Under the pieces are notes generated by a model. That model saw nothing but the letters and a program-made list of their open reading frames with translations. It made no database searches and was not told the DNA's origin. Below are positions 13,961 to 27,526 of a DNA stretch of 64,000 bases, one piece after another (the first letter of the stretch is position 1; each line of letters starts with the position of its first letter). Source of the DNA: Marinibacterium anthonyi (GTDB lineage: Bacteria > Pseudomonadota > Alphaproteobacteria > Rhodobacterales > Rhodobacteraceae); the NCBI GenBank assembly GCA_003217735.2, contig CP031585.1, positions 1,537,501 to 1,601,500 of the forward strand, written 5' to 3'. The translations under genes and the position numbers were made by a program.

Positions 13961-14059
13961 GGGGCACCTTTGATAGCGGTTTTCACGCAGGCTAGCACGC
14001 AGGCTTCCAGGAACACCACCTGACTGACCCGGGCTGACCGCCCCGGGCCGGCCAGCGAT

Positions 14060-15061
14060 TTACCCCCAGGGCCCTTTCGGCGCACGATGACCCGACTTCG
14101 GCACCCGGCTGGCCGACAGGGGCTGCGCATCATCGCCGCGCGGAGGTTCCGCATAGTCCGAAAGTCCCGAAGAAGGTCGCGAAGAGGGCCGCGCATACCC
14201 TGGTGACCTCGCAGACCCGGACGCCCCCGCAGACCCCGCCATGGCCCGCAGCGCGGCGATGCGGTTCTCGGTCGCCGGGTGGGTGGCGAACAGGCTGTCG
14301 CGCTTGTTGGCGTGCAGCGGGTTGATGATGAACATATGCGCCGTCGCCGGATTGCGTTCGGCGGCGTCGTTGTCGATCCGCGCCGCGCCCACGGCGATCT
14401 TTTCCAGCGCCGAAGCCAGCCACAGCGGCTGACCGCAGATCTCGGCCCCCGCCTTGTCGGCGGCATATTCCCGGGTCCGGCTGATCGCCATCTGCACCAG
14501 CGCGGCGGCCATCGGCGCCAGGAACATCATCATCAGCGTGCCGACCAGCCCCATCCGTTCGCGCGAGCCCCCGAAGAACAGCGCAAAGTTCGCCAGCATG
14601 GAAATCGCACCGGCAAAGGTCGCCGTGACGGTCATGATCGCGGTGTCGTGGTTGCGGATATGGGCCAGTTCATGCGCGATCACGCCCGCCAGCTCCTCGC
14701 GGCTCAGGCTGCGGACCAGCCCCGATGTCACCGCGACGGCGGCATTGGCCGGGTTGCGCCCGGTGGCAAAGGCATTGGGCTGGGGCGTGTCGATCATGTA
14801 GACCTTGGGTTCGGGCAGGCCGGCGTTCCGCGCCAGTTCGGACACCAGCGCGTGCAGGCCCATCCGGTCGTTGCGGATCACCGGCTGGGCATTGTGCATG
14901 CGCAGCACCATCCGGTCCGAATTCCACCAGGTGAAAACGTTCATCGCCGCCGCGACCACCAGCGCGATCAGCGCACCGCCCGATCCGCCGATCATGTACC
15001 CCACGCCCATGAACAGCGCAGTCATCGCCGCCATCAGCATCGCCGTCTTCACGTAACCCAT
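14060..15061 (-). CDS. htpX: Membrane zinc metalloprotease HtpX
   Basis: An M48-family protease that degrades misfolded membrane proteins under stress. The protein has 333 residues. Two hydrophobic segments lie at about 5-25 and 28-46, the zinc site HELAH is at 130-134, two more membrane segments follow, and the third ligand Glu lies in [12 protein letters not shown] (near 208). [22 protein letters not shown] marks the end of the family domain. Beyond it a Ser/Pro/Arg-rich tail of about 50 residues is added. The start at 15061 has GGAG about 8 bases upstream; the longer frame from 15094 has no such site. Confidence 0.95.
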
Positions 15062-15407
15062 CTTCGTCTCCGCAAAATCACCATGTGGCAACACTGCAGA
15101 TATGTGTCCGGTTCCCGGTCGCGCAAGAACCGGGCGGATCCGCGTCTTCGTGAGCCGACCGTGCTGATATCTCCGTCACCCGGTCCCTGAGCAGGACACA
15201 GGGGGGCCCCAGGCGGTGATCACGGCTGCAGCAAGGTATTGGAAGGCGAGGGAAGGGAAGGCCCGGGAAGGGAAGGCATGCAAACGCAAGGCGCACAATC
15301 TGGTGCGGAGCCGTGGGACATCCTAACGAATTGTAAAAACGCCTCTGTAACCCATTGATATTACACAAGACGATGGGTGTCCCACGCGTGGGACACCCTG
15401 GGGGAGC
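15062..15407. other. Intergenic gap with repeats, no gene seen
   Basis: This 346-base stretch lies between the triad-less protease homologue and htpX, both on the minus strand. It holds a purine-rich direct repeat (GGGAAGGGAAGGC twice, 15247-15279), an inverted repeat TGTAA-N10-TTACA (15346-15365), a half site CGTGGGACATCC (15312-15323) and the 24-bp palindrome described separately. I found no convincing coding frame or RNA gene. Confidence 0.6.
15375..15398. repeat. Perfect 24-bp palindrome
   Basis: GGGTGTCCCACG followed by its exact inverse CGTGGGACACCC, ten bases beyond the stop of the minus-strand gene. A half copy with one mismatch lies at 15312-15323. It could be a terminator stem without a T tract or a protein-binding dyad. 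Confidence 0.85.
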
Positions 15408-17153
15408 TTACTCCCAGCAGCTCACAAGGACGGTCATCCCCTCGGCCAGTTTCATCAGGTCCTGCGGCGCCACGCTCTCCGGGGAGCTTCCCCCCGCGGC
15501 GCCCACGCCCGCCTGTTTCAGCAGGCCTGCGATGGCGCCCGACTTGGCCGCGAACCGCACGTCCGTCGGCAGCTGCTGCGCGCCGCCCTTTTCGGGCAGC
15601 AGCATCCCCAAGACCGAGCCGCCCGCATCGAAGACCGGCCCACCCGCATCGCCCGGCTGCGCCGCCAGCGCCAGCCGGGTCAGCCCGTCCTCCCCGTCCA
15701 GGCCCCGCGTGTCCGACAGCGTCCCGAAGGTCAGCGACGGCGCGCCCAGAACGCCGCCGAAGGAATAGCCCGCCACGGCGATCTCCGACTGCAGCCGCGG
15801 CAGCAGGTCCGACAGCCGCGCGATCTCCATCGGGGCCAGCCGGTCCGTCGGGCGCAGCACCGCCACCCCCAGCGCCGGATCCGACGCCACCACGCGCGCC
15901 TGGTACTCATCCGCCAGCGTCACCCGCCCGCAGGACGCCACCGTCGCCGCCGAGGTTACGACACTCCCTTGCCGGTCCACGAAAAAGCCCGAACCGGTGA
16001 CCGACGGCTTGCGCACCTCCAGCCCCGACACCAGGTCGACATTCTGTTCCTGCTCGGCGCCGGCCAGCGGATCCAGCGTGCCGGGCAAGCGGGTGAAGCT
16101 GGTCTTCATCTCGGCCAGCACCCGCGCGCGGCGGCGTTCATCCCCCGTGGGCCAGGTCAGGATGAAGCCCTTGATCTCGTCGTCCTGAAGGCTGGCTTCC
16201 ACGTGGGTCACCATGCGGGCATTGCGCCCCTCGATGGTGAACCCCGTCCGCGTCCGTTCGCGCGGCCCGTCCAGCGGCACGATGTCCAGCGTCTGCAGGA
16301 TGTCATACAGCCCGTAAAGCGTATCGCTTTCGCCTGGCTCGCTGATCAGCAGCAGCCGGATGCCGTCGTCGGTGGTCGCATCGTAATGGGCAAAGGGCGA
16401 CTGGTACTTGGCAAAGGCCACCACGCCCAGGGGCATCTGCATGGCGATACCGGCGCGAATGTCGCTTTGCCGGGTCATGCCGACGCTGGTCAGGGGCTGG
16501 TTGTACTGTTCCATCAGAACGGCGCGCTGGCGGGTGGTGAGGATGCCGGTGGGCTCGTAGCCATTGGCCACCTGCCAATCCCCCATAGACCGCCGCGTCC
16601 CGGCCCCGAAGGCGCCGTCGATCCCGGCGTTGTAAAAGCCGCCCCATTGCATCGCCCGCTGCAGGTCCATCCGGTCCTGTGCCGTCAGCAGCCGTTCCGA
16701 AACGCGCGCCTCGGCCGGGGTTTCATCCACCTGGCCGACCGGGGCTGGCGTGTCGGGGGCGGCGGGGCCGGGGTTGGAGGCCAGCGGCTGGGCGTCGAGC
16801 GGGGCAGGGGCCGTGCCCTCGGGGCCGACGCCGATGGGATAGAACCGCCGCCCATAGGTGCGCGTGCCGGTGATATAGCTGTCGCGGGGGATCTTGCCCT
16901 CGGCGCGATAGACCTGCAGCACCTGGCGGGCGTCCTCGGGGGCGTAGGGCCCAAGCGCGATGCCGTACCAGCTGCCGCCCAGGGCAAAGCCGTTCACGTC
17001 CGGCATTTCGGCCGCATAGCGGCGGGCGCGTTCCTCGGCGACGGTCAGGCTGGGGTGGGCCTCGATCTGGACCCAGACGTTTTCTTCCTGTGCAACCGCG
17101 GCGCGGGCCGCAAAGAGGACCGTGAATGCGATCCACCCAAGGAGTTTTTTCAT
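15408..17153 (-). CDS. Secreted SPOR + peptidoglycan-binding + trypsin-fold protein lacking the catalytic triad
   Basis: A 581-residue protein with a signal peptide (MKKLLGWIAFTVLFAARAAVA). Residues about 25-120 look like a SPOR domain (VWVQIEAHPSLTVAEERARR, WYGIALGPYAPEDARQVL), and about 150-215 like PG_binding_1 (DLQRAMQWGGFYNAGIDGAF). The C-terminal 190 residues follow the HtrA/trypsin fold, but the site residues are gone. The His position reads VVTSAATVASC, the Asp position DPALGVAVLRP, and the Ser motif is QPGDAGGP with Ala near 502. It is probably a binding rather than cleaving protein at the cell wall. The second of two close Met codons was chosen because GAGGT lies 6 bases before it. 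Confidence 0.85.
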   Translation of the reverse strand: MKKLLGWIAFTVLFAARAAVAQEENVWVQIEAHPSLTVAEERARRYAAEMPDVNGFALGGSWYGIALGPYAPEDARQVLQVYRAEGKIPRDSYITGTRTYGRRFYPIGVGPEGTAPAPLDAQPLASNPGPAAPDTPAPVGQVDETPAEARVSERLLTAQDRMDLQRAMQWGGFYNAGIDGAFGAGTRRSMGDWQVANGYEPTGILTTRQRAVLMEQYNQPLTSVGMTRQSDIRAGIAMQMPLGVVAFAKYQSPFAHYDATTDDGIRLLLISEPGESDTLYGLYDILQTLDIVPLDGPRERTRTGFTIEGRNARMVTHVEASLQDDEIKGFILTWPTGDERRRARVLAEMKTSFTRLPGTLDPLAGAEQEQNVDLVSGLEVRKPSVTGSGFFVDRQGSVVTSAATVASCGRVTLADEYQARVVASDPALGVAVLRPTDRLAPMEIARLSDLLPRLQSEIAVAGYSFGGVLGAPSLTFGTLSDTRGLDGEDGLTRLALAAQPGDAGGPVFDAGGSVLGMLLPEKGGAQQLPTDVRFAAKSGAIAGLLKQAGVGAAGGSSPESVAPQDLMKLAEGMTVLVSCWE

Positions 17154-17333
17154 GCTCATACCTCGATTTACCCGCGTTGGCCGCGGGTCAATGGCCCTGT
17201 CGGGCCTTCATTAACCTGAAATCGCCCGATTTGACCATGAATTGACACTTCGTGACAAGGTAATGTGGCCCCGTTGACCCGGCCGTCCACCCCGCCTATT
17301 CAATGGCCGCCGCTCCATCCGGGAAAGACTGAC

Positions 17334-18284
17334 ATGCTCGACGCCGCCACAGCCCCGCGCTCGTTCCAGGAGATCATCCTGCGCCTGCAGAATTACTGGG
17401 CCGCAAAGGGCTGCGCGATCCTGCAGCCCTACGACATGGAGGTCGGCGCCGGAACGTTCCATCCGGCGACCACCCTGCGCTCGCTGGGCTCGAACCCCTG
17501 GGCCGCGGCCTACGTTCAGCCGTCGCGCCGCCCGACCGACGGGCGCTATGGCGAGAACCCGAACCGCTTGCAGCATTATTACCAGTACCAGGTGCTGATC
17601 AAACCGTCGCCGCCCGACCTGCAGGACCTGTACCTGGGGTCCCTTCAGGCGATCGGCATCGACATGGACCTGCACGACATCCGCTTTGTCGAAGACGACT
17701 GGGAAAGCCCGACGCTGGGCGCCTGGGGCCTGGGCTGGGAAGTCTGGTGCGACGGGATGGAAGTGTCGCAGTTCACCTATTTCCAGCAGGTCGGCGGGCA
17801 CGATTGCAAGCCTGTGTCGGGCGAGTTGACCTATGGCCTGGAACGGCTGGCGATGTACGTCCTGGGGATCGAGCATGTGATGGACATGCCGTTCAACGAC
17901 CCTCAGACGCCGATCCCGCTGACCTATGGCGACATCTTCCGCCAGACCGAACAGGAATATTCCCGCTGGAACTTCGACGTGGCCGACACCGAGGTCCTGC
18001 TGCGCCATTTCGAGGAAGCCGAGGCCGAATGCGCCCGCATCCTGGATCACCCGGCCGAGGATCCCAAGACCGGCAAGCGCATCATCATGGCGCATCCCGC
18101 CTATGACCAGTGCATCAAGGCCAGCCATATCTTCAACCTGCTTGACGCGCGGGGCGTGATTTCCGTGACCGAACGGCAGGCCTATATCGGCCGGGTCCGG
18201 GCGCTGGCCAAGCAATGCGCCGACGCCTTCGTCCAGACAGAGGCCGGTGGGGCGGAGCGCGAAGAAGAGATCCCGTTCGAGTGA
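17334..18284 (+). CDS. glyQ: Glycine-tRNA ligase alpha subunit
   Basis: The catalytic alpha chain of the alpha2-beta2 glycyl-tRNA synthetase. The protein has 316 residues. Class II motifs and family blocks are visible: [25 protein letters not shown], the Gly-binding [40 protein letters not shown], and [13 protein letters not shown]. The ATG at 17334 begins [12 protein letters not shown]. The upstream open frame from 17265 lacks support. The partner glyS lies 2.5 kb downstream, separated by marC (opposite strand), a DUF6446 gene and gltS. An imperfect dyad TTGACACTTCGTGACAA at 17242-17258 lies in its leader. Confidence 0.97.
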
Positions 18285-18289
18285 CCCGC

Positions 18290-18922
18290 TCAGGCCAGCC
18301 CCGGCCAGAGCGCCTTGAGCCCGTCGGCGATCATCTCGACGGCGATGGCGGCGAGGATCATGCCCATCAGGCGGCTCATGATGGCGCGCGCCGTTGTGGA
18401 CAGGTGCCGGCCGATATCGGCGGCAAAGAAGAACACGATGCCCAGCATGGCAATCAGCCCGCCGAAGACCACGCCAAAGGCGATCTTGTCGCTGATCGTG
18501 GTGGCCTGACCCATGAAGACGATCAGCGTCGCGATGGTGCCGGGGCCGATGATGATCGGGAAGGTCAGCGGGTAAAAGGCGACCGAGGCCGCATCGGGGT
18601 AGGCGGCCTTTTCATGCTGCGATCCCGAATGGGACTGGCTGTGGTCCCCGTTCAGCATGTTCAGCGCGATCAGCAGCAGGACAAGACCCCCCGCCGTGCG
18701 GAAATCGTCGATGGAAATGCCGAACAGCTTCAGCACCGCCGATCCCGCCAGCGAGAACACCGCGCCCATGACCAGGGAATACAGCGCCACCTTCAGCGCG
18801 ATGGCCTTCTGCGTCGCCGCGTCCGCGCCATCGGTGATGCCCAGGAACAGGGGCAGGTTGCTGATCGGGTTCATGATCGCGAAAAGCGCGCCGAACAGCT
18901 TGATCGCGTATGCCGTGTCCAT
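18290..18922 (-). CDS. MarC-family integral membrane protein
   Basis: A 210-residue protein with six predicted membrane helices. It has the MarC-type N-terminal FGALFAIMNPISNLPLFLGITDG, FRTAGGLVLLLIALNMLNG, and the second-half motif FYPLTFPIIIGPGTIATLIVF, repeating the NP-region pattern of the first half. MarC was first linked to multiple antibiotic resistance, but that role is not supported and function is unknown. The hydrophilic loop DHSQSHSGSQHEKAAYPDA is His- and Ser-rich. It is inserted on the opposite strand between glyQ and its neighbours, with six bases after the glyQ stop. Confidence 0.9.
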   Translation of the reverse strand: MDTAYAIKLFGALFAIMNPISNLPLFLGITDGADAATQKAIALKVALYSLVMGAVFSLAGSAVLKLFGISIDDFRTAGGLVLLLIALNMLNGDHSQSHSGSQHEKAAYPDAASVAFYPLTFPIIIGPGTIATLIVFMGQATTISDKIAFGVVFGGLIAMLGIVFFFAADIGRHLSTTARAIMSRLMGMILAAIAVEMIADGLKALWPGLA

Positions 18923-18984
18923 GGATCCCCCCGTGTGACTGGGCGCGGCCTAGCACATGCTTACCCCTGCGGAAAGGCCCGAGG

Positions 18985-19512
18985 ATGAACGGAAAACTAC
19001 TGGCTGGCTTCATCGTGGTGTCCGCCCTGATCACCGGGGCCGGCATCTACTACATGCAGGTCTACGCCTTCTACGGTGCGGTGGCGCCCGATGGATCGAC
19101 CGACGTCCAGCTGGTGTCGCGTGTCACGGGCGCGCCCGAGCCGATTGCCTACGCCGATTTCCAGGCGATCGACGCCTCGTCCTCGCCGATCCGCTACCGG
19201 GCCTGTTTCACCACGACGCAACCGCTGGACGAATTGACCGAGGCCTACGAAATGGCCGACGATCCCGATCCGCGCAATGCGCCGGGCTGGTTCGACTGTT
19301 TCGACGCGGCCGAGATCGGCGCCGAGCTTGAGGCCGGCACCGCGCAGGCGTTCATCGGGCAGAAGAACGTGGATTACGGGGTCGACCGGATCGTGGCCAT
19401 TACCCAGGACGGGCGCGGCTATGTCTGGCACGATCTGAACCATTGCGGCGAAAAGGCCTATGACGGCACGGTGGTGGGCGAGGAATGTCCGGCCCGTCCG
19501 AAACACGAGTAA
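18985..19512 (+). CDS. DUF6446 family protein
   Basis: A 175-residue protein with one N-terminal membrane anchor or signal segment (KLLAGFIVVSALITGAGIYYMQV), then a periplasmic-type domain with YYMQVYAFYGAV, SPIRYRACFTTTQPL, PGWFDCFDAAEIGAELE and YGVDRIVAITQDGRGYVWHDLN. Three cysteines are present in the outer part. The family is known to me only as a conserved Rhodobacterales gene next to glyS, and its function is unknown. The ATG at 18985 follows AAGGCCCGAGG. It precedes gltS by 20 bases and is probably co-transcribed with it. Confidence 0.8.
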   Translation: MNGKLLAGFIVVSALITGAGIYYMQVYAFYGAVAPDGSTDVQLVSRVTGAPEPIAYADFQAIDASSSPIRYRACFTTTQPLDELTEAYEMADDPDPRNAPGWFDCFDAAEIGAELEAGTAQAFIGQKNVDYGVDRIVAITQDGRGYVWHDLNHCGEKAYDGTVVGEECPARPKHE

Positions 19513-19532
19513 GCGGTTAGACGGTACAACCC

Positions 19533-20738
19533 ATGATCCTCGAGATCCCCGATTTCCTGTCCCTGACGCTGGGACTTGCGGTGTTCCTGCTGGGTGTCAT
19601 GCTGAACGACCGGTTCGAGCCGCTGCACCGGTTCAACATCCCCGAGGCGGTGACCGGCGGGCTGGCCGTCGCGCTGGTGGTGCTGCTGGTCTACCTGGTC
19701 GCGGATGTCGAGATCGTCTTCAACCTGGCGACACGGGATTTCCTGCTGGTGCTGTTCTTCTCGGGCATCGGGCTGAATGCGCGGCTGGGGGATCTGATCT
19801 CGGGGGGCAAGGCGCTGGCGGTGCTGCTGGGGCTGACCGTGCTGGCGATCTGCGCGCAGAACATCATCGGGACGCTTGGCGCCGTGCTGTTCGGGTTCCC
19901 GGCCCAATCCGGCGTCCTGTTCGGGTCCGCCGCGCTGATCGGCGGGCACGGCACGGCCATCGCCTGGGCGCCCGAGGTCATGCGCGCCACCGGGTTGGGC
20001 AACGCGGCCGAACTGGGCGTGGCGGTGGCCACGCTGGGGCTGGTGCTGGCGGCGCTGGTGGGCGGGCCGGTGGCCGGGTTCCTGGTGCAGCGCCACAAGC
20101 TCGGCCCGCAGACCGAGGAAGAGGTCATCACCATCGGCGTGCAGGACGACGCCTCGCGCGAGGCGGCGCGGATCGACCACAAGACGGTGATGCGGGCGCT
20201 GTTGTACCTCAACCTCGCGATCATGACGGGCTTCCTGCTGCACGAGGTCCTGGAGGACCTGGGCGTGATGCTGCCCTATTTCGTGCCCTGCCTGATCATG
20301 GGCATCGTCATCGCCAACCTGCGCGCGGCGCTTTTCCCCAAAGCGCCCCCTGTCTCGCGCACGGCGTCGCTGGCGCTGATCTCGGAATTCGCGCTTGGCG
20401 CCTTTCTGGCCATGTCGCTGATGTCGCTGCAGCTGTGGACCATTGCCGAACTTGGCCCCGCCATCGCCGTGACACTGGCGCTGCAGACGCTTTTTACCGT
20501 GGTCTTTGTTGTCTGGGTGCTGTTCCCCGTCATGGGGCGCACCTACGACGCCGCCGTCCTGGCCGCCGGGTTCGGCGGGTTTGCCCTGGGCGCGACGCCC
20601 ACCGCAATCGCCAACATGACAGCCGTAACCAAGCGATATGGCCCGTCGCCTATTGCCTTCATCGTGCTGCCCCTTGTATCCGCATTCTTCGTGGACATCG
20701 CCAATGCCATCGTCATCCAGATGGTTCTGAACTTCTGA
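19533..20738 (+). CDS. gltS: Sodium/glutamate symporter
   Basis: A 401-residue membrane protein of the GltS family that imports glutamate with Na+. Two homologous halves contain the re-entrant loop regions: SAALIGGHGTAIAWAPE (about 130-146) and the C-terminal FGGFALGATPTAIANMTAVT. Other family features are LGLAVFLLGVMLNDR and LFFSGIGLNARLGDL. About ten to twelve helices are expected. It lies between a DUF6446 gene and glyS, and its stop is 10 bases from the glyS start, so the three genes form a tight transcription unit. Confidence 0.93.
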   Translation: MILEIPDFLSLTLGLAVFLLGVMLNDRFEPLHRFNIPEAVTGGLAVALVVLLVYLVADVEIVFNLATRDFLLVLFFSGIGLNARLGDLISGGKALAVLLGLTVLAICAQNIIGTLGAVLFGFPAQSGVLFGSAALIGGHGTAIAWAPEVMRATGLGNAAELGVAVATLGLVLAALVGGPVAGFLVQRHKLGPQTEEEVITIGVQDDASREAARIDHKTVMRALLYLNLAIMTGFLLHEVLEDLGVMLPYFVPCLIMGIVIANLRAALFPKAPPVSRTASLALISEFALGAFLAMSLMSLQLWTIAELGPAIAVTLALQTLFTVVFVVWVLFPVMGRTYDAAVLAAGFGGFALGATPTAIANMTAVTKRYGPSPIAFIVLPLVSAFFVDIANAIVIQMVLNF

Positions 20739-20748
20739 AGGACATCCC

Positions 20749-23007
20749 GTGCCCGACCTGCTGATCGAACTCTTTTCCGAAGAAATTCCGGCCCGCATGC
20801 AGGCGCGTGCGGCGGAGGAACTGAAGAAACGCATGACCGACGGCCTTGTCGAGGCCGGTCTGACCTATGCCGGTGCCGCCGCCTACGTGACGCCCCGCCG
20901 CCTGGCGCTGGCCATCAGCGGGCTGACCGCCGAAAGCCCGACGCTGCGCGAGGAACGCAAGGGGCCGAAAGTGGGCGCGCCCGAGAAGGCGATCGAAGGC
21001 TTCCTGCGCGGCGCGGGGCTGACCCGCGACGACCTGGAAGAACGCGACACGCCCAAGGGCGCCGTCTATTTCGCCATCGTGACCAAGCCGGGCCGCAAGG
21101 CCGAAGAGATCATCGCCGAAGTGCTGGAAACCACGGTGCGCACCTTTTCCTGGCCCAAGTCGATGCGCTGGGGCGCGGGCAGCCTGCGCTGGGTGCGGCC
21201 GCTGCATTCGATCCTGTGCCTTCTGTCGGACGAGGGCGGCGCGCGCGTCGTCGAGATGGAGATCGACGGCATCAAGGCCGGCAACACCACCGAAGGGCAC
21301 CGGTTCCTGGCGCCGGGCCGGTTCAGCGTCACCTCGTTCGAGGATTACGAGGCGCAGCTGAAACGCCGCTCGGTCATTCTGAACGCGGACGAACGGGGCG
21401 AACAGATCTGGCATGACGCCACCAACATGGCCTTTGCCAACGGTCTGGAGGTGATCGACGACAAGGGCCTGCTGGCCGAAGTGTCGGGGCTGGTCGAATT
21501 CCCCGTCGTGCTGATGGGCGAGATCGGCGAGGATTTCCTGGATCTGCCGCCCGAGGTGCTGCAGACCTCGATGAAGGAACATCAGAAGTTCTTCTCGGTC
21601 CGCAATCCGCGCACGGGGCGCATCGAACGGTTCATCACCGTGGCGAACCGGACGACGTCGGACCACGGGGCCACGATCCTTGCGGGCAACCAGAAGGTGC
21701 TGGCGGCGCGTCTGTCGGATGCCAAGTTCTTCTGGGAAAACGATCTTCGCGTCGCCAAGGCCGATATCATGTCCTGGGTGCGCGACCTGGAAAACGTGAC
21801 TTTCCACAACAAGATGGGCAGCCAGGGCGACCGCATCCGGCGCATCGCCTCGCTGTCGCATGAGCTGGCCGACATCACCGGCGCCGACGCGGCCGAGGCG
21901 CAGGAAGCCGCCGAGTTGGCCAAGGCCGACCTGTCTTCGGAAATGGTCTATGAATTCCCCGAACTGCAGGGGCTGATGGGCCGCTACTACATCGCCGCCT
22001 CGGGACGCAGCGACGCTGTCGCCGCCGCCGCCCAGCACCATTATTCGCCGCTGGGCCCGTCCGACGACGTGCCGACGGGCAAGGTGTCGGTCACCGTGGC
22101 GCTGGCGGACAAGCTGGACATGCTGGCGGGCTTCTGGGCCATCGACGAAAAACCGACCGGGTCCAAGGACCCGTTTGCCCTGCGCCGGGCCGCGCTGGGG
22201 GTGATCCGGCTGATCCTGGAGAACGACCTGCGCCTGCAACTGCGCGAAGTGACCGCGCGGGCCTTCTTTCCGCATGCGCTGAAACGCGATGCGGGCGCGG
22301 GCGAGACCATGGCCGAGAAACACGCCGAATATGCCCGGATCACGGGCACCGAGGCCGGGAAGATCGGCGGGATGTCGGCCAAGGCACTGACGTCGATGAT
22401 TGCGTCGCGCGGGCTGCTGGGCACGCTGTGGGACACCATCAGCGACCGGAATTCCAGCTTTGCCGAGGACAAGGCGATCCTGGATGACCTGCTGGGCTTC
22501 ATCCACGACCGGCTGAAGGTGGTGCTGCGCGAAAAAGGCATTCGTCACGACATCATCGACGCCTGTATCGAGATGCCCGGTTCGGACGATCTGACGCTGC
22601 TGGTCAAGCGGGCCGAAGCCCTTGATGCGGTTCTGAAAACCGAGGACGGCGAGAACCTGCTGCAGGGCTTCAAGCGGGCCAACAACATCCTGACCCAGGC
22701 CGAGGAAAAGGACGGTGTCGAATATTCCTTCGGTGCCGATCCCCGCTTTGCCCAGGACGCGGCCGAAGCCGAACTGTTCGAAGCGCTGGACATGGCCGAA
22801 GCGTCGATTACCCCGGCGTTGAAGCGCGAGGATTTCGCCGACGCGATGAGCGCGATGGCGGGTCTGCGCGGTCCGGTCGATGCCTTCTTCGAAGCCGTGC
22901 AGGTCAATACAGACAACCAGACCGTGCGGCGTAACCGCTTGAATCTCCTTAGCCGAATCCGTTCGGTCTGTATCTCTGTGGCCGATCTCACGCGTATCGA
23001 CGGGTGA
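20749..23007 (+). CDS. glyS: Glycine-tRNA ligase beta subunit
   Basis: The tRNA-recognising beta chain of glycyl-tRNA synthetase, 752 residues, somewhat longer than in enterobacteria. Family blocks are DLLIELFSEEIPARMQARA, the FSWPKSMRWGAGSLRWVRPLHSI segment, TEGHRFL, EGLMGRYYI-type (here LQGLMGRYYIAASG) and the HD-like SVTVALADKLDMLAGFWAIDEKPTGSKDPFALRR. A C-terminal DALR-type anticodon-binding helix bundle follows. Translation starts at GTG 20749, with GAAGGAC just upstream, overlapping the gltS stop region. Its TGA overlaps the GTG of the next gene (GTGA). Confidence 0.96.
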   Translation: MPDLLIELFSEEIPARMQARAAEELKKRMTDGLVEAGLTYAGAAAYVTPRRLALAISGLTAESPTLREERKGPKVGAPEKAIEGFLRGAGLTRDDLEERDTPKGAVYFAIVTKPGRKAEEIIAEVLETTVRTFSWPKSMRWGAGSLRWVRPLHSILCLLSDEGGARVVEMEIDGIKAGNTTEGHRFLAPGRFSVTSFEDYEAQLKRRSVILNADERGEQIWHDATNMAFANGLEVIDDKGLLAEVSGLVEFPVVLMGEIGEDFLDLPPEVLQTSMKEHQKFFSVRNPRTGRIERFITVANRTTSDHGATILAGNQKVLAARLSDAKFFWENDLRVAKADIMSWVRDLENVTFHNKMGSQGDRIRRIASLSHELADITGADAAEAQEAAELAKADLSSEMVYEFPELQGLMGRYYIAASGRSDAVAAAAQHHYSPLGPSDDVPTGKVSVTVALADKLDMLAGFWAIDEKPTGSKDPFALRRAALGVIRLILENDLRLQLREVTARAFFPHALKRDAGAGETMAEKHAEYARITGTEAGKIGGMSAKALTSMIASRGLLGTLWDTISDRNSSFAEDKAILDDLLGFIHDRLKVVLREKGIRHDIIDACIEMPGSDDLTLLVKRAEALDAVLKTEDGENLLQGFKRANNILTQAEEKDGVEYSFGADPRFAQDAAEAELFEALDMAEASITPALKREDFADAMSAMAGLRGPVDAFFEAVQVNTDNQTVRRNRLNLLSRIRSVCISVADLTRIDG

Positions 23008-25637
23008 TTGGCGACAAGACCAAGGACTCTCTTGCACGAACCGGCGGCGGGCGTATCTTGCCCGTTGAAGTGGATTCCGCAGTGCAGAATAATCCCGATA
23101 CCACCCTCGTCACACCCGATGCACCCATCAAGAACTACACCCATGGGGGCCGGGCCAAGTGCCTTCAGCGTCTTGTGCGGCTGGACATGCCTGTGCCGCG
23201 CACGGTGGCGTTGTCCTTTGACGCGGTGCACCGCATCGCCCAGGGCCATCTGCCGGATCTGACACGCATCCTGGCGGCGTTCGACGACAACCCGCTGCTG
23301 TGTGTGCGCCCATCGTCCGAAGACCCCGACTGGGGCGGGCCGGGGGCGGTTCTGAACATCGGCATGAACGCCGCCCGCCACGTCGCGCTGTGCAAGCGGC
23401 TGGGCCGGACGGCGGCGGACGCGCTGTACGTGCGCTTTGTGCAGGCCTATGCGTCGAACGTGGCGCGGCTGGACCCGGATGTGTTCGACGACGTCGATGT
23501 CTGCGAGGACGGCGCGCTGGACCGGATCCTCGAAGCTTACGCGGTCGAGGCCGACGAACCCTTTCCGCAGGACCCGGGCCGCCAGCTGTCCGCCGTTCTG
23601 AAATCCATGGCCCGCGCCTGGGAGGGCACATCCGCCCGCCTGCTGCGACAGGCCAAGGGCGCGCCGGCCGATGCCGGGCTGGGCCTTGTGGTGCAAGAGA
23701 TGATCCCCGGTCTGGGGCAGGGCGAATGCGGATCGGGCGTGCTGCAACTGGTCGATCCGGTGACCGGCCAGCCGCAGCTGACCGGGCGTTACCTGAGCCA
23801 GAGCCAGGGCCGGGACGCGCTTGGTGCCGGGCGCAAGGCCCTGTTTCTGCAAAAGGATACCCGCGGCCCGTCGCTTGAGGAACTGGCGCCGGCAGCCTTT
23901 GGCGCACTCAAGGAACACGCCGCGCGGATGCGGGTGAAGCTGCGCGAGGAAATGCAGGTCGAGTTCGTGATCGAGAACGGGCGCGTGCATATCCTGGACG
24001 GCGTGCGTGTGCCCCGGTCGTCCCGGGCGACGGTGCAGATTGCCGTGCGGCTGGCGCAGGACGGTGTCATCACCCAACAGGAAGCGGTGATGCGGGTGGA
24101 ACCCGGCGCGCTGAACGAATTGCTGCACCGTCAGGTCGCGCCGCGCGCGAAACGCGACGTGATCGGGTCGGGTATCGCGGCCAGCCCAGGCGCAGCCACC
24201 GGCCGCCTGGTCTTTACCGCGGCCGAGGCGCAGGCCAGTGCGGCGCGGCGCGAACCCTGCGTGCTGATCCGGCGGGAAACCGTGCCCGAGGATATCCGCG
24301 GCATGCATGCCGCCATCGCCGTGCTGACCGAAAAGGGCGGCATGACCAGCCATGCGGCGGTGATCGGCCGGGGTCTGGGGCTGCCGTGCATCGTGGGGGC
24401 ATCGGGCCTGACCTTCCGGATGAACCAGGAACAACTGGTCGCGCCGAACGGGCGGGTCTTCAAGACCGGCGACATCATCACCATCGACGGGACGTCCGGC
24501 CAGGTGCTGGCGGGCGAGCCCGAGATGCTGGAACCGGCGCTGGACGATGCCTTTCAGACGCTGATGGGGTGGGCCGACGAGGCGCGTGATATCGGCATCC
24601 GCGCTAATGCCGACACGCCCGAGGACGCCCAGACCGCGCGCAACTTCAACGCGCAGGGCATCGGGTTGTGCCGGACGGAACACATGTTCTTCGAACCGGC
24701 CCGCCTTGTTGTCATGCGCGAGATGATCTTTGCCGAGACCAGCGGCGATCGGGCCGCTGTGCTGGAGCGGCTTTTGCCCATGCAAAGGGCCGATTTCATT
24801 CAGCTTTTCCGGATCATGGAAGGCCAGCCGGTCTGTATCCGCCTGTTCGATCCCCCCTTGCACGAATTCCTGCCGACCACCCGCAGCGGCCAGCGCGACC
24901 TGGCCGAGGCGCTGGACATCCCGCTGTCCGACGTGGTGCGCCGGGCCGAGCAGATGGGCGAATACAACCCGATGCTGGGCATGCGCGGCGTGCGGCTGGG
25001 GGTCACGGTTCCCGAAATCTACGACATGCAGGCCCGCGCGATCTTCGAGGCGACACTGGAGGCCAGCCGTGACGGCGCCCCTGTCGAACCCGAGATCATG
25101 ATTCCCCTGGTGTCGGCCCGGCGCGAGGTCGAGCTGGTCAAGGCGCGCATCGATGCCGTTGCCGCCGCTGTCCGCGCCGAACGGGGGCGCAGTTTCGTCT
25201 ACAAGCTGGGCGTCATGGTCGAAACCCCGCGCGCAGCGCTGCGCGCCGGCGAGATCGCCCAGCACGTGTCCTTTCTGTCCTTCGGCACCAATGACCTGAC
25301 CCAGATGACCTATGGCCTGTCGCGCGACGACGCGGGGCGGTTCATGTCCGCCTACGTCAAGCTGGGGGTCTTTCCCGAAGATCCGTTCCATGTGCTCGAT
25401 GTCGACGGTGTCGGCGAATTGCTGGAACTGGGCGCGGCCCGGGGCAGGGCGGCCCGGCCGGACATCACCCTGTCGATTTGCGGCGAACACGGGGGCAATC
25501 CCGAATCAATCGCCTTCTGCCGGGAGGCGGGTTTCGACTATGTCTCGTGCTCTCCGTTCCGGGTTCCGGTCGCACGGCTTGCAGCCGCCCAACTGGCGAT
25601 TTCCCACCAGATCGGCCGATCAGAGGCCGCGCAATAA
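23004..25637 (+). CDS. ppdK: Pyruvate phosphate dikinase-like PEP-utilising enzyme
   Basis: An 877-residue PPDK-family protein. The phosphohistidine domain has EKGGMTSHAAVIGRGLGLPC. The C-terminal PEP/pyruvate barrel has GIGLCRTEHMFF, MLGMRGVRLG, SFGTNDLTQMTYGLSRDDAG and the catalytic Cys in ICGEHGG. The N-terminal ATP-grasp half is diverged: the usual GGKGANL is replaced by HGGRAKCLQR, and the MPGMMDT-type segment by SSEDPDWGGPGAVLN. Phosphoryl transfer from PEP is therefore well supported, while ATP/AMP chemistry needs testing. The GTG at 23004 overlaps the glyS stop by four bases, suggesting translational coupling. Confidence 0.88.
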   Translation: MIGDKTKDSLARTGGGRILPVEVDSAVQNNPDTTLVTPDAPIKNYTHGGRAKCLQRLVRLDMPVPRTVALSFDAVHRIAQGHLPDLTRILAAFDDNPLLCVRPSSEDPDWGGPGAVLNIGMNAARHVALCKRLGRTAADALYVRFVQAYASNVARLDPDVFDDVDVCEDGALDRILEAYAVEADEPFPQDPGRQLSAVLKSMARAWEGTSARLLRQAKGAPADAGLGLVVQEMIPGLGQGECGSGVLQLVDPVTGQPQLTGRYLSQSQGRDALGAGRKALFLQKDTRGPSLEELAPAAFGALKEHAARMRVKLREEMQVEFVIENGRVHILDGVRVPRSSRATVQIAVRLAQDGVITQQEAVMRVEPGALNELLHRQVAPRAKRDVIGSGIAASPGAATGRLVFTAAEAQASAARREPCVLIRRETVPEDIRGMHAAIAVLTEKGGMTSHAAVIGRGLGLPCIVGASGLTFRMNQEQLVAPNGRVFKTGDIITIDGTSGQVLAGEPEMLEPALDDAFQTLMGWADEARDIGIRANADTPEDAQTARNFNAQGIGLCRTEHMFFEPARLVVMREMIFAETSGDRAAVLERLLPMQRADFIQLFRIMEGQPVCIRLFDPPLHEFLPTTRSGQRDLAEALDIPLSDVVRRAEQMGEYNPMLGMRGVRLGVTVPEIYDMQARAIFEATLEASRDGAPVEPEIMIPLVSARREVELVKARIDAVAAAVRAERGRSFVYKLGVMVETPRAALRAGEIAQHVSFLSFGTNDLTQMTYGLSRDDAGRFMSAYVKLGVFPEDPFHVLDVDGVGELLELGAARGRAARPDITLSICGEHGGNPESIAFCREAGFDYVSCSPFRVPVARLAAAQLAISHQIGRSEAAQ

Positions 25638-25807
25638 CACCATCTTGACGTCAAGTCGTGGGAACAAAACCGCTGTCAATAGGCGGATTTGTTCTCAGTA
25701 TGCCGTGATTTTGAGCGAAACTGGACGCTATTGATCGTTTCCGTTAAGTGACCGTGGATCTGCGCCTTGGGGGGCGGCCTATCCGAGTTGAATACAAGAG
25801 GTCACTA

Positions 25808-26467
25808 ATGTTGAGAGCCGCGTTCGTGCTCGCGTGCATCCTGGGCTTGAGCCCTGCTGTGTCGGTCGCAGCTGATGCCGAATTGAAATCGCTGATGAAC
25901 CTGGAAAAGACCCGGTTGATGGCGCTGCCCGCTGGCCATGTCGCCGGTCTGGTCGCAGACCCGAAATCGGTAAAGAAGAAACGCAACGACCTGGAAAAGG
26001 TTCCCAACGTCGAATTCTCGCGGTCCTGGGTGGATGCTTTGCCCAAGGCCAACGGCGGCAAGGACTGGGCCTGCCTGTCCGAGGCGCTGTATTTCGAAGC
26101 CCGGGGCGAAACCATCAAGGGCCAGTTCGCGGTGGCCGAGGTCATCCTGAACCGGGTCCATAGTCAGCGCTTTCCGAATTCGGTCTGCGGGGTGATCCAC
26201 CAGGGAACCGGCAAGCTGCACCAGTGCCAGTTCACCTACACCTGCGACGGCCGGGCCGAAAACATCCACGAACCCGCCGCCTATGACCGTGTTGCCAAGG
26301 TCGCGCGCCTGATCCTGGACGGCAAGGCCAAGCCGCTGACCGACGGGGCGACGTTCTATCACACCAATGCCGTGCGCCCGCGCTGGTCCCGGGTCTACAA
26401 GCAGACCGCCCAGATCGGCGTGCACAAGTTCTACCGCGACAATTACCGGACCGCCGACAACAGCTGA
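25808..26467 (+). CDS. SleB-type cell-wall hydrolase
   Basis: A 219-residue secreted protein with a signal peptide (MLRAAFVLACILGLSPAVSVAA). The C-terminal Hydrolase_2 (SleB) domain has CLSEALYFEARGE with the catalytic-type Glu, FAVAEVILNRVHSQRFPNSVCGV, QCQFTYTCDG and the late GATFYHTNAVRPRW. Members cleave peptidoglycan glycan strands; here the likely role is wall remodelling in the periplasm. A basic linker (SVKKKRNDLEK) connects leader and domain. The ATG at 25808 was preferred to the longer frame from 25748 because of AAGAGG upstream and the leader. Confidence 0.9.
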   Translation: MLRAAFVLACILGLSPAVSVAADAELKSLMNLEKTRLMALPAGHVAGLVADPKSVKKKRNDLEKVPNVEFSRSWVDALPKANGGKDWACLSEALYFEARGETIKGQFAVAEVILNRVHSQRFPNSVCGVIHQGTGKLHQCQFTYTCDGRAENIHEPAAYDRVAKVARLILDGKAKPLTDGATFYHTNAVRPRWSRVYKQTAQIGVHKFYRDNYRTADNS

Positions 26468-26596
26468 AACCGATACAGCCGTTGTCCGCGGACCGGCCGG
26501 AAATCGCCCCTGGCGCTTTCCACGGACCAAGGTCCCTGTTAACAGCCGGTCGACCCGGGCCCAGGATGGGCCCGGACTGACAACGAAACGGATCGC

Positions 26597-27526
26597 ATGA
26601 CTTCAGACCTGCATCTTGCCTTCGCCTCCCTGTCGGATCGGGCCGAGGCGTCGGCGGCCTCGGGGCCGCTGGACCGCATCAGCGTCCGCGACCACGTGGT
26701 CGATGTGGAGATCGGTGCGTTCCAGGCCGAACGGGGCACCACCCAGCGCGTGCGCTTCAACGTGGTGGTCGAAGTCGAGCCGGTCACCGTGGCTGTCGAC
26801 GACGATGTCGACCGGATCCTGTCCTACGACCGGATCACCGACGCGATTTCCGAAAGCCTGGCCGAAGAACGGCTGAACCTGCTGGAAACCCTGGCCGAAC
26901 GGGTTGCCGAACGGGTGCTGACCGCACCGCGCGCCATGCGGGTCTTCGTGCGGATCGAAAAGCTTGACCGGGGGCCGGGGGCTTTGGGCGTCGAGATCGT
27001 GCGCGACCGGCGCTGGCATCCGGAAACGGGGCGTCACGAGGATGTTCCCCATCCCCGGCTGGTCTACCTTTCCAACGCGGCGATGGAGGCTGCGACCCTT
27101 TCGGGCTGGATCGACGCGCTGCAGGCGCAGGGCCGGCCGGTGATCTTCTGTGTCGGTGCGTCCGATCTGCCGGTGCCGCAGACGGGCCATCGCATGACCC
27201 AGCGGCGCATCGACCTGCTGGCCATCGAACAGAACGCCTGGCGCCTGGCCGCGCGCGACAGCCGCTGCGTGGTGGTGGGCACGCGCACCGAACTCGACTG
27301 GGCGGTGCGCCATGGCCAGATCTCGGTCTGGGCGCCATCGAAGATCGTGCTGGATTCGGTCGAAAGCCCCTCTGTCCGGTCTGATGACACGGTGGCGCTG
27401 GCCGCGTGGTTCGCCGGCCGCATCCAGGCCGAAGAGCTGCTGGTCGTGGGCGCCGACCTTCCCGAGACCGACAGCACGCGGGTCAAGCTGCGCGCCATGT
27501 CCGTGCAGGAGCGCGAAATCCTTTGA
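26597..27526 (+). CDS. folB: Dihydroneopterin aldolase with additional C-terminal domain
   Basis: A 309-residue protein. Residues about 24-140 form a FolB domain (ISVRDHVVDVEIGAFQAERG, the SYDRITDAI segment with the catalytic-type residues, LNLLETLAERVAERVL), which cleaves dihydroneopterin to hydroxymethyl-dihydropterin in folate synthesis. FolB alone is about 120 residues. The remaining 165 residues (VYLSNAAMEAATLSGWIDAL, VVVGTRTELDWAVRHGQ, DTVALAAWFAGRIQAEELLVVG) form an extra domain I cannot name with certainty; the pattern recalls amino-acid-kinase-like folds. The stop overlaps the TTG start of folP. Confidence 0.88.
   Translation: MTSDLHLAFASLSDRAEASAASGPLDRISVRDHVVDVEIGAFQAERGTTQRVRFNVVVEVEPVTVAVDDDVDRILSYDRITDAISESLAEERLNLLETLAERVAERVLTAPRAMRVFVRIEKLDRGPGALGVEIVRDRRWHPETGRHEDVPHPRLVYLSNAAMEAATLSGWIDALQAQGRPVIFCVGASDLPVPQTGHRMTQRRIDLLAIEQNAWRLAARDSRCVVVGTRTELDWAVRHGQISVWAPSKIVLDSVESPSVRSDDTVALAAWFAGRIQAEELLVVGADLPETDSTRVKLRAMSVQEREIL

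Follow-up and report, generated by a model that had tools for sequence, protein, structure and literature searches.

Why should the two subunit genes of one enzyme be held apart by genes that have no obvious business with it? The window, by which we mean the whole stretch of 64,000 nucleotides (nt) of the Marinibacterium anthonyi contig CP031585.1 that was analysed, encodes an alpha2beta2 glycyl-tRNA synthetase (GlyRS), as both glyQ and glyS products exceed their curated cut-offs. The two genes are not directly adjacent, and the 2464 nt between them hold three genes: marC on the opposite strand, a DUF6446 gene and gltS, a predicted glutamate transporter gene. The explanation that we consider likely is that the interval is a glyQ-DUF6446-glyS operon, characteristic of the family Rhodobacteraceae, which was opened in the lineage of the window by two passengers, gltS and marC. 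The separation of the subunit genes by DUF6446 is old and nearly family-wide, not a local oddity. The features of the interval, in window coordinates, are the following.

17334-18284, + strand: glyQ, glycyl-tRNA synthetase alpha subunit (TIGR00388, 451.1 bits, cut-off 361.45; PF02091, 469.8 bits)
18290-18922, - strand: marC-family membrane protein gene, a variable antisense insert between glyQ and DUF6446 (PF01914, 164.4 bits, cut-off 23.9)
18923-18984, no strand: divergent marC/DUF6446 gap of 62 nt, non-coding, with room for a possible DUF6446-gltS-glyS promoter (from the sequence)
18985-19512, + strand: DUF6446 gene (PF20044, 207.5 bits, gathering score 26.7; also synteny, alignment and structure model)
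19533-20738, + strand: gltS, sodium/glutamate symporter (TIGR00210, 382.7 bits, cut-off 310.75)
20736-20748, + strand: gltS stop codon (20736-20738), then AAGGA, the likely ribosome-binding site of glyS (from the sequence and the comparison of gltS loci)
20749-23007, + strand: glyS, glycyl-tRNA synthetase beta subunit, GTG start (TIGR00211, 749.6 bits, cut-off 300)

These coordinates and the curated models bear out the gene order that the original prediction had read from the letters alone, and likewise the ten-base spacing and the GTG start, with the gltS stop codon ending at 20738 and the GTG at 20749. The statement that three membrane-protein genes lie between the subunit genes holds for the number of genes, with the nuance that only one membrane helix is predicted for the DUF6446 protein. 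The marC product is also over the cut-off in TIGR00427 (161.2 versus 99.2 bits; MarC / NAAT family). The DUF6446 protein aligns to the entire PF20044 model (positions 1-129 of 129), for which Pfam states no function, and sodium-dependent glutamate transport by the gltS product is predicted from the TIGR00210 match.

The interval was compared across the Rhodobacteraceae, as had been proposed, and DUF6446 proved to be the fixed gene, with marC and gltS optional. Among 149 genera of the family, each represented by one genome under a G number, matches were found to DUF6446 in 141, to glyQ in 144 and to glyS in 143. Every one of the 141 DUF6446 genes lies downstream of its glyQ and shares contig and strand with it, and the order glyQ-DUF6446-glyS holds in all 138 genomes that carry the three genes on one contig; for this count, broken matches were merged in G119 and G013, and second DUF6446 matches (G120, G004), pieces of glyQ (G139, G084) and several pieces of glyS were dropped. 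A second set of loci, in which L numbers denote the rows, gave the same result, with DUF6446 between the subunit genes in 157 of the 158 loci holding both. The 157 loci came from two sources, and the intervals fetched were 61 long and 18 compact ones besides that of G059; a few genomes occur twice and long intervals are enriched, so that counts over this set are not frequencies. DUF6446 is also present in 61 of 61 genomes in a sample of the order.

Outside the family the organization is different. Our class sample comprised 142 genomes, two from the family itself and 140 from other families, and DUF6446 was detected in none of the 140. Of the 109 outside genomes in which glyQ and glyS share a contig and strand, 96 have no more than 100 nt between the two matches, 10 have 101-300 nt and three have more. 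Because DUF6446 is missing from the outside genomes and glyQ and glyS mostly lie close together there, the separation of the subunit genes is derived in the family and marked by DUF6446. In the samples searched, this gene is private to the family, downstream of glyQ, and between the subunit genes when glyS shares the contig. Had most relatives kept glyQ and glyS side by side, the interval would have looked like a recent insertion. That adjacency is the rule outside the family but not inside it, where, of 139 genomes that carry the pair on a shared contig and strand, only G059 shows it. Compared with the bacterial glyQS operon, which encodes the alpha2beta2 GlyRS (PMC3990555), the family locus is alike in its two genes, their order, their strand and, in compact loci, short spacers; it differs by the presence of DUF6446 between the subunit genes, to which the window adds antisense marC and gltS.

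The spacing of the genes suggests how such a locus may be expressed. Start codons were picked by simple rules, and the analysis of the glyS start covers 152 loci, five of the 157 rows having been dropped when the start motif was not found; glyS begins with ATG in 149 of these and with GTG in three. An overlap of 4 or 1 nt joins glyQ to DUF6446 in 72 of the 109 loci without a recognised insert, which were drawn from 155 with a located DUF6446 start. The gap between DUF6446 and glyS is 50 nt or less in 90 of 131 loci without gltS, and 31 overlap by one base. Rhodobacter ruber (L054) and Cognatishimia activa (L035) have compact loci. When gltS intervenes, 18 of 21 loci have 9-10 nt between its end and the glyS start, the exceptions being L028 (808 nt), L133 (5901 nt) and L132 (a one-base overlap); TAAGGA or TGAGGA occupies the junction in most of the 21, and in the window AAGGA follows TGA. 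The tight packing of glyQ, DUF6446 and glyS suggests a coupled operon, and because the spacing upstream of glyS is mostly short or overlapping with or without gltS, translation of glyS may be coupled to whichever gene precedes it.

In the family default, glyQ, DUF6446 and glyS would be co-transcribed as one coupled unit and the subunits would thereby be kept in step. In the window, gltS would belong to the coupled chain, glyS being translated from the AAGGA directly after the gltS stop codon, and antisense marC would break the chain after glyQ. Because marC cuts the chain there, GlyS would depend either on the glyQ transcript reading through antisense marC (the two genes are convergent, with their ends 5 nt apart) or on a promoter located in the 62-nt gap between marC and DUF6446. 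The earlier assertion that simple co-transcription could not balance the subunits is partly right: antisense marC does interrupt the glyQ-to-glyS unit in the lineage of the window, but family-wide the junctions on both sides of DUF6446 are mostly tight or overlapping where nothing has been inserted. A scan of positions 15500-24500 returned two promoter-like sites (1.1 expected) and eight terminator-like sites (5.3 expected), close to shuffled sequence; at counts this near to expectation, it placed no + strand terminator-like site between glyQ and DUF6446, and one inside gltS at 20261. Rfam gave no matches at gathering scores over 14000-27000, and thus no known riboswitch or T-box. The element CCTANNNT, a CCTA element, occurs upstream of DUF6446 in six of 15 marC loci, compared with 0.8 on average when blocks were shuffled 2000 times; these loci are related to one another, the pattern was chosen after inspection and the window copy is incomplete, lacking the last T, so that the element in the marC/DUF6446 gap is a weak lead only.

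Of the passengers, antisense marC was found in 15 of the 157 loci, and marC and gltS flank DUF6446 in the same manner in 11, the window included, spread over several genera; two of these 11 hold an extra FkbM gene. Ruegeria atlantica (L019) is one member with marC and gltS, and Ruegeria pomeroyi (L041) holds FkbM together with gltS. Further genes found beside DUF6446 are an FkbM-type methyltransferase (on either side), DUF1206, DUF3800 and a glyoxalase-like gene, the last named by eye and not from a model. FkbM-type methyltransferase genes recur in both slots, in 27 of 138 rows (L041, L061, L078, L120 and others).

The gltS gene occurs in 17 of the 149 family genera, lying between DUF6446 and glyS in 14, as in the window, and elsewhere in three; the other 132 genera gave no gltS match. 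Five of the 140 outside genomes were over the cut-off and three had weak matches. All 23 slot copies form one clade (support 97/94; LG+G4 model), apart from the three non-slot family copies and the outside copies, with the long branch L116_slot0 inside the slot clade; by eye, the slot copies roughly track the GlyRS tree. On the tree of GlyQ and GlyS (138 rows, built with FastTree and containing long branches), the presence of gltS in 20 rows requires at least 13 state changes. Because all slot copies form one clade, the simplest explanation is a single old insertion, inherited by descent and lost repeatedly, although transfer among family members is possible. In one locus, L116 (G078), the slot between DUF6446 and glyS holds a tandem pair of diverged gltS genes.

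Among the alternatives, the one that survives best is that the slots on either side of DUF6446 are a hotspot, filled by many separate insertions of gltS, marC and other genes or by recombination between family members. The variety of genes found beside DUF6446 and their patchy distribution, with minimum numbers of state changes of 24 for FkbM, 13 for gltS and 8 for marC, would be expected of a hotspot; the single clade of slot copies speaks against it for gltS only. We regard this as a possible account, clearly second to that of an operon opened by passengers. It is improbable that gltS and glyS are functionally linked, in the sense that there is a metabolic reason to express glutamate uptake together with glycine charging. 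Such a link would agree with the preference of gltS for this slot and with the maintenance of the 9-10 nt spacing, but most of the family lacks gltS, three genera hold it elsewhere, and other DNA intervenes between gltS and glyS in L133 (G125) and L028. The tie of a glutamate transporter to a glycine-tRNA ligase, which had been singled out as unexplained, is old where it exists, but the gene that is tied to the GlyRS subunits in the family at large is DUF6446.

The DUF6446 product of the window has 175 residues and consists of an N-terminal predicted membrane helix (residues 2-28) and a beta-rich domain, modelled with a mean predicted local distance difference test (pLDDT) score of 95.7. By the positive-inside rule, the positively charged flank of a membrane helix stays on the cytoplasmic side. 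Among 68 aligned members, the first five residues are net positive in 67 and the stretch after the helix is net negative in 62, and because of this charge bias the domain is predicted to lie in the periplasm, behind a helix with its N-terminus inside. Cys74 and Cys105 are present in all 68; Cys154 and Cys168 occur together in 46 and are jointly missing from the other 22, never singly, a pattern that is as expected of two disulfides. The ratio of nonsynonymous to synonymous substitution rates (dN/dS) is 0.14-0.33 in eight of nine pairs and 0.69 in one, and exceeds that of glyQ in every pair. A Foldseek search of the model against solved structures gave no matches at E ≤0.001 (best E 0.078, template modelling score about 0.2), and all seven matches of the sequence profile to solved structures had E >1. 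Two genomes carry a second DUF6446 match: in L131 (G120) the two lie in one frame, a 307-residue open frame that appears to be a tandem fusion, and G004 (L083) has two matches as well.

The possibility that DUF6446 directly serves GlyRS, as a membrane tether or a regulator of the alpha2beta2 enzyme, would account for its unbroken position between the subunit genes, the sole adjacent pair without it being that of G059, and for its presence throughout the order sample. We think it slightly less probable even than a gltS-glyS link. The predicted topology leaves few residues in the cytoplasm, the two cysteine pairs indicate the periplasm, G059 retains glyQ and glyS without DUF6446, and the sampled genomes of other families do without it. 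Because only a few of its residues would face the cytoplasm, DUF6446 is probably not part of the tRNA-charging enzyme. It would instead be a housekeeping envelope protein whose place has been kept through expression locked to an essential operon. Least credible of all is that the marC/gltS arrangement of the window is a recent chance rearrangement without wider meaning, since, although absent from most relatives, it is shared by loci of several genera.

Several observations nevertheless weigh against the operon opened by passengers. DUF6446 is absent from G059, where glyQ and glyS are adjacent. In G130, despite ample DNA after DUF6446, glyS lies on a different contig, as it does in G008 and G050; the 10 kb after glyQ in L066 yielded neither DUF6446 nor glyS. 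Of the 138 ordered genomes, 76 are compact and 62 are not, by chosen thresholds (<330 and <200 nt) on distances that run between model matches and not gene ends. The proposed co-transcription and coupling derive solely from gene spacing. The 13 or more changes in the presence of gltS are compatible also with repeated transfer within the family. In the nine pairs the nonsynonymous rate of DUF6446 exceeds that of glyQ by a factor of two to ten. The envelope role of its product is a prediction from sequence and a structure model. Among the 80 glyQ loci, the contigs of L026 and L039 carry DUF6446 and end before glyS, and L081, named as a Rhizobiaceae metagenome-assembled genome, has neither DUF6446 nor glyS on its short contig. 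A search for a dimeric-type GlyRS as replacement covered nine genomes, those without one or more of glyQ, DUF6446 and glyS and G000 as reference, and gave nothing over the cut-off and five weak matches; because of this, the missing loci are more likely assembly gaps than replacements of GlyRS.

Beyond glyS the window continues with a homologue of pyruvate, phosphate dikinase (PPDK), and a further gene diverges from glyQ on the other side.

15408-17159, divergent from glyQ: trypsin-like protein with a peptidoglycan-binding domain
23004-25637, + strand: PPDK-like gene after glyS, whose true start may be further in (TIGR01828, 824.7 bits, under the cut-off of 843.45)

A PPDK homologue follows glyS in 61 of the 80 glyQ loci, with a cell wall hydrolase gene next in 57 of these, and stands away from glyS in some family genera. 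At E ≤1e-50 a homologue is present in 142 of the 149 genera, as a single match in 139 and as two in G000, G062 and G124. The second homologue of the window's own genome (G000) lies at C3:50001-52046 and scores 733.9 bits. A match to the trypsin-like protein, in some cases weak, occurs upstream of glyQ in 72 of the 80 loci; by association only, these outer neighbours, the trypsin-like protein and the cell wall hydrolase, hint at the envelope. The order glyQ-glyS-ppdK is shared with other Alphaproteobacteria, a ppdK homologue following glyS in 18 of 20 outside-family loci hand-picked from the class sample as it does in the window; the family differs by having DUF6446 between the subunit genes and altered ATP-site motifs in the ppdK homologue.

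To describe that alteration, 149 matches were reduced to 116 complete, different proteins (98 from the family and 18 from outside), the rest being dropped, and three of eleven motif patterns (the R92, E323 and E745 regions) were left out, as they were not found in the reference row. We take SMPGMMDT and QTR to be ATP-site motifs, TSHAA to mark the catalytic histidine, and CRTEHMF, GTNDLTQ and CGEHGG to belong to the phosphoenolpyruvate (PEP) site. QTR is found in one of the 98 family proteins (L101) versus 17 of the 18 outside. The SMPGMMDT loop is swapped in the family for a WGGP-type motif, PDWGGPGA in 54 of 98, and the pattern S[MLR]PGMM[DN]T is absent from all 130 family loci, some of which are truncated, with L101 missing it by one letter. 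The window protein has PDWGGPGA and DGV where PPDK has SMPGMMDT and QTR, and its ATP-site motifs are changed likewise when it is aligned to a solved PPDK. Kept in the 98 family proteins are TSHAA in 94 and SSHAA in four, CRTEHMF in 94, GTNDLTQ in 97 and CGEHGG in 93. The product is possibly a repurposed PEP-dependent phosphohistidine protein. L101 has DUF6446 and nearly unchanged PPDK motifs, and G059 (L104) has altered PPDK motifs and no DUF6446; because of these two combinations, DUF6446 probably arose before the PPDK change and was then lost in G059, although L104 has a long branch, paired with L155 in the tree, and its placement is unsure. A more ambitious scenario is that the GlyRS locus was rebuilt early in the family, linking translation to the envelope through DUF6446, a private periplasmic protein without a match among solved folds and coupled between the two subunits, and to PEP supply through conversion of PPDK into a PEP-driven, histidine-phosphorylated regulator that does not use ATP. 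We consider it about as improbable as the gltS-glyS link.

A literature search that reached few subscription papers found no paper naming DUF6446 and, at the level of listings, no account of this gene order, and the portion of PMC9275681 available to us holds nothing on this locus. The altered PPDK is relevant to whether the family can use this enzyme to convert pyruvate into PEP. Loci that are compact, that hold gltS, that are cut by antisense marC or that have lost DUF6446 form a natural series, suited to the study of subunit balance in an opened operon. With its fixed place in an essential operon and its restriction to the family in the genomes sampled (141 of 149 genera, none of 140 outside), DUF6446 is a promising candidate for an envelope protein both important and specific to the family. 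The puzzle of the locus shifts accordingly from the tie between a glutamate transporter and a tRNA ligase to the presence of a family-private, predicted periplasmic protein inside the GlyRS operon.

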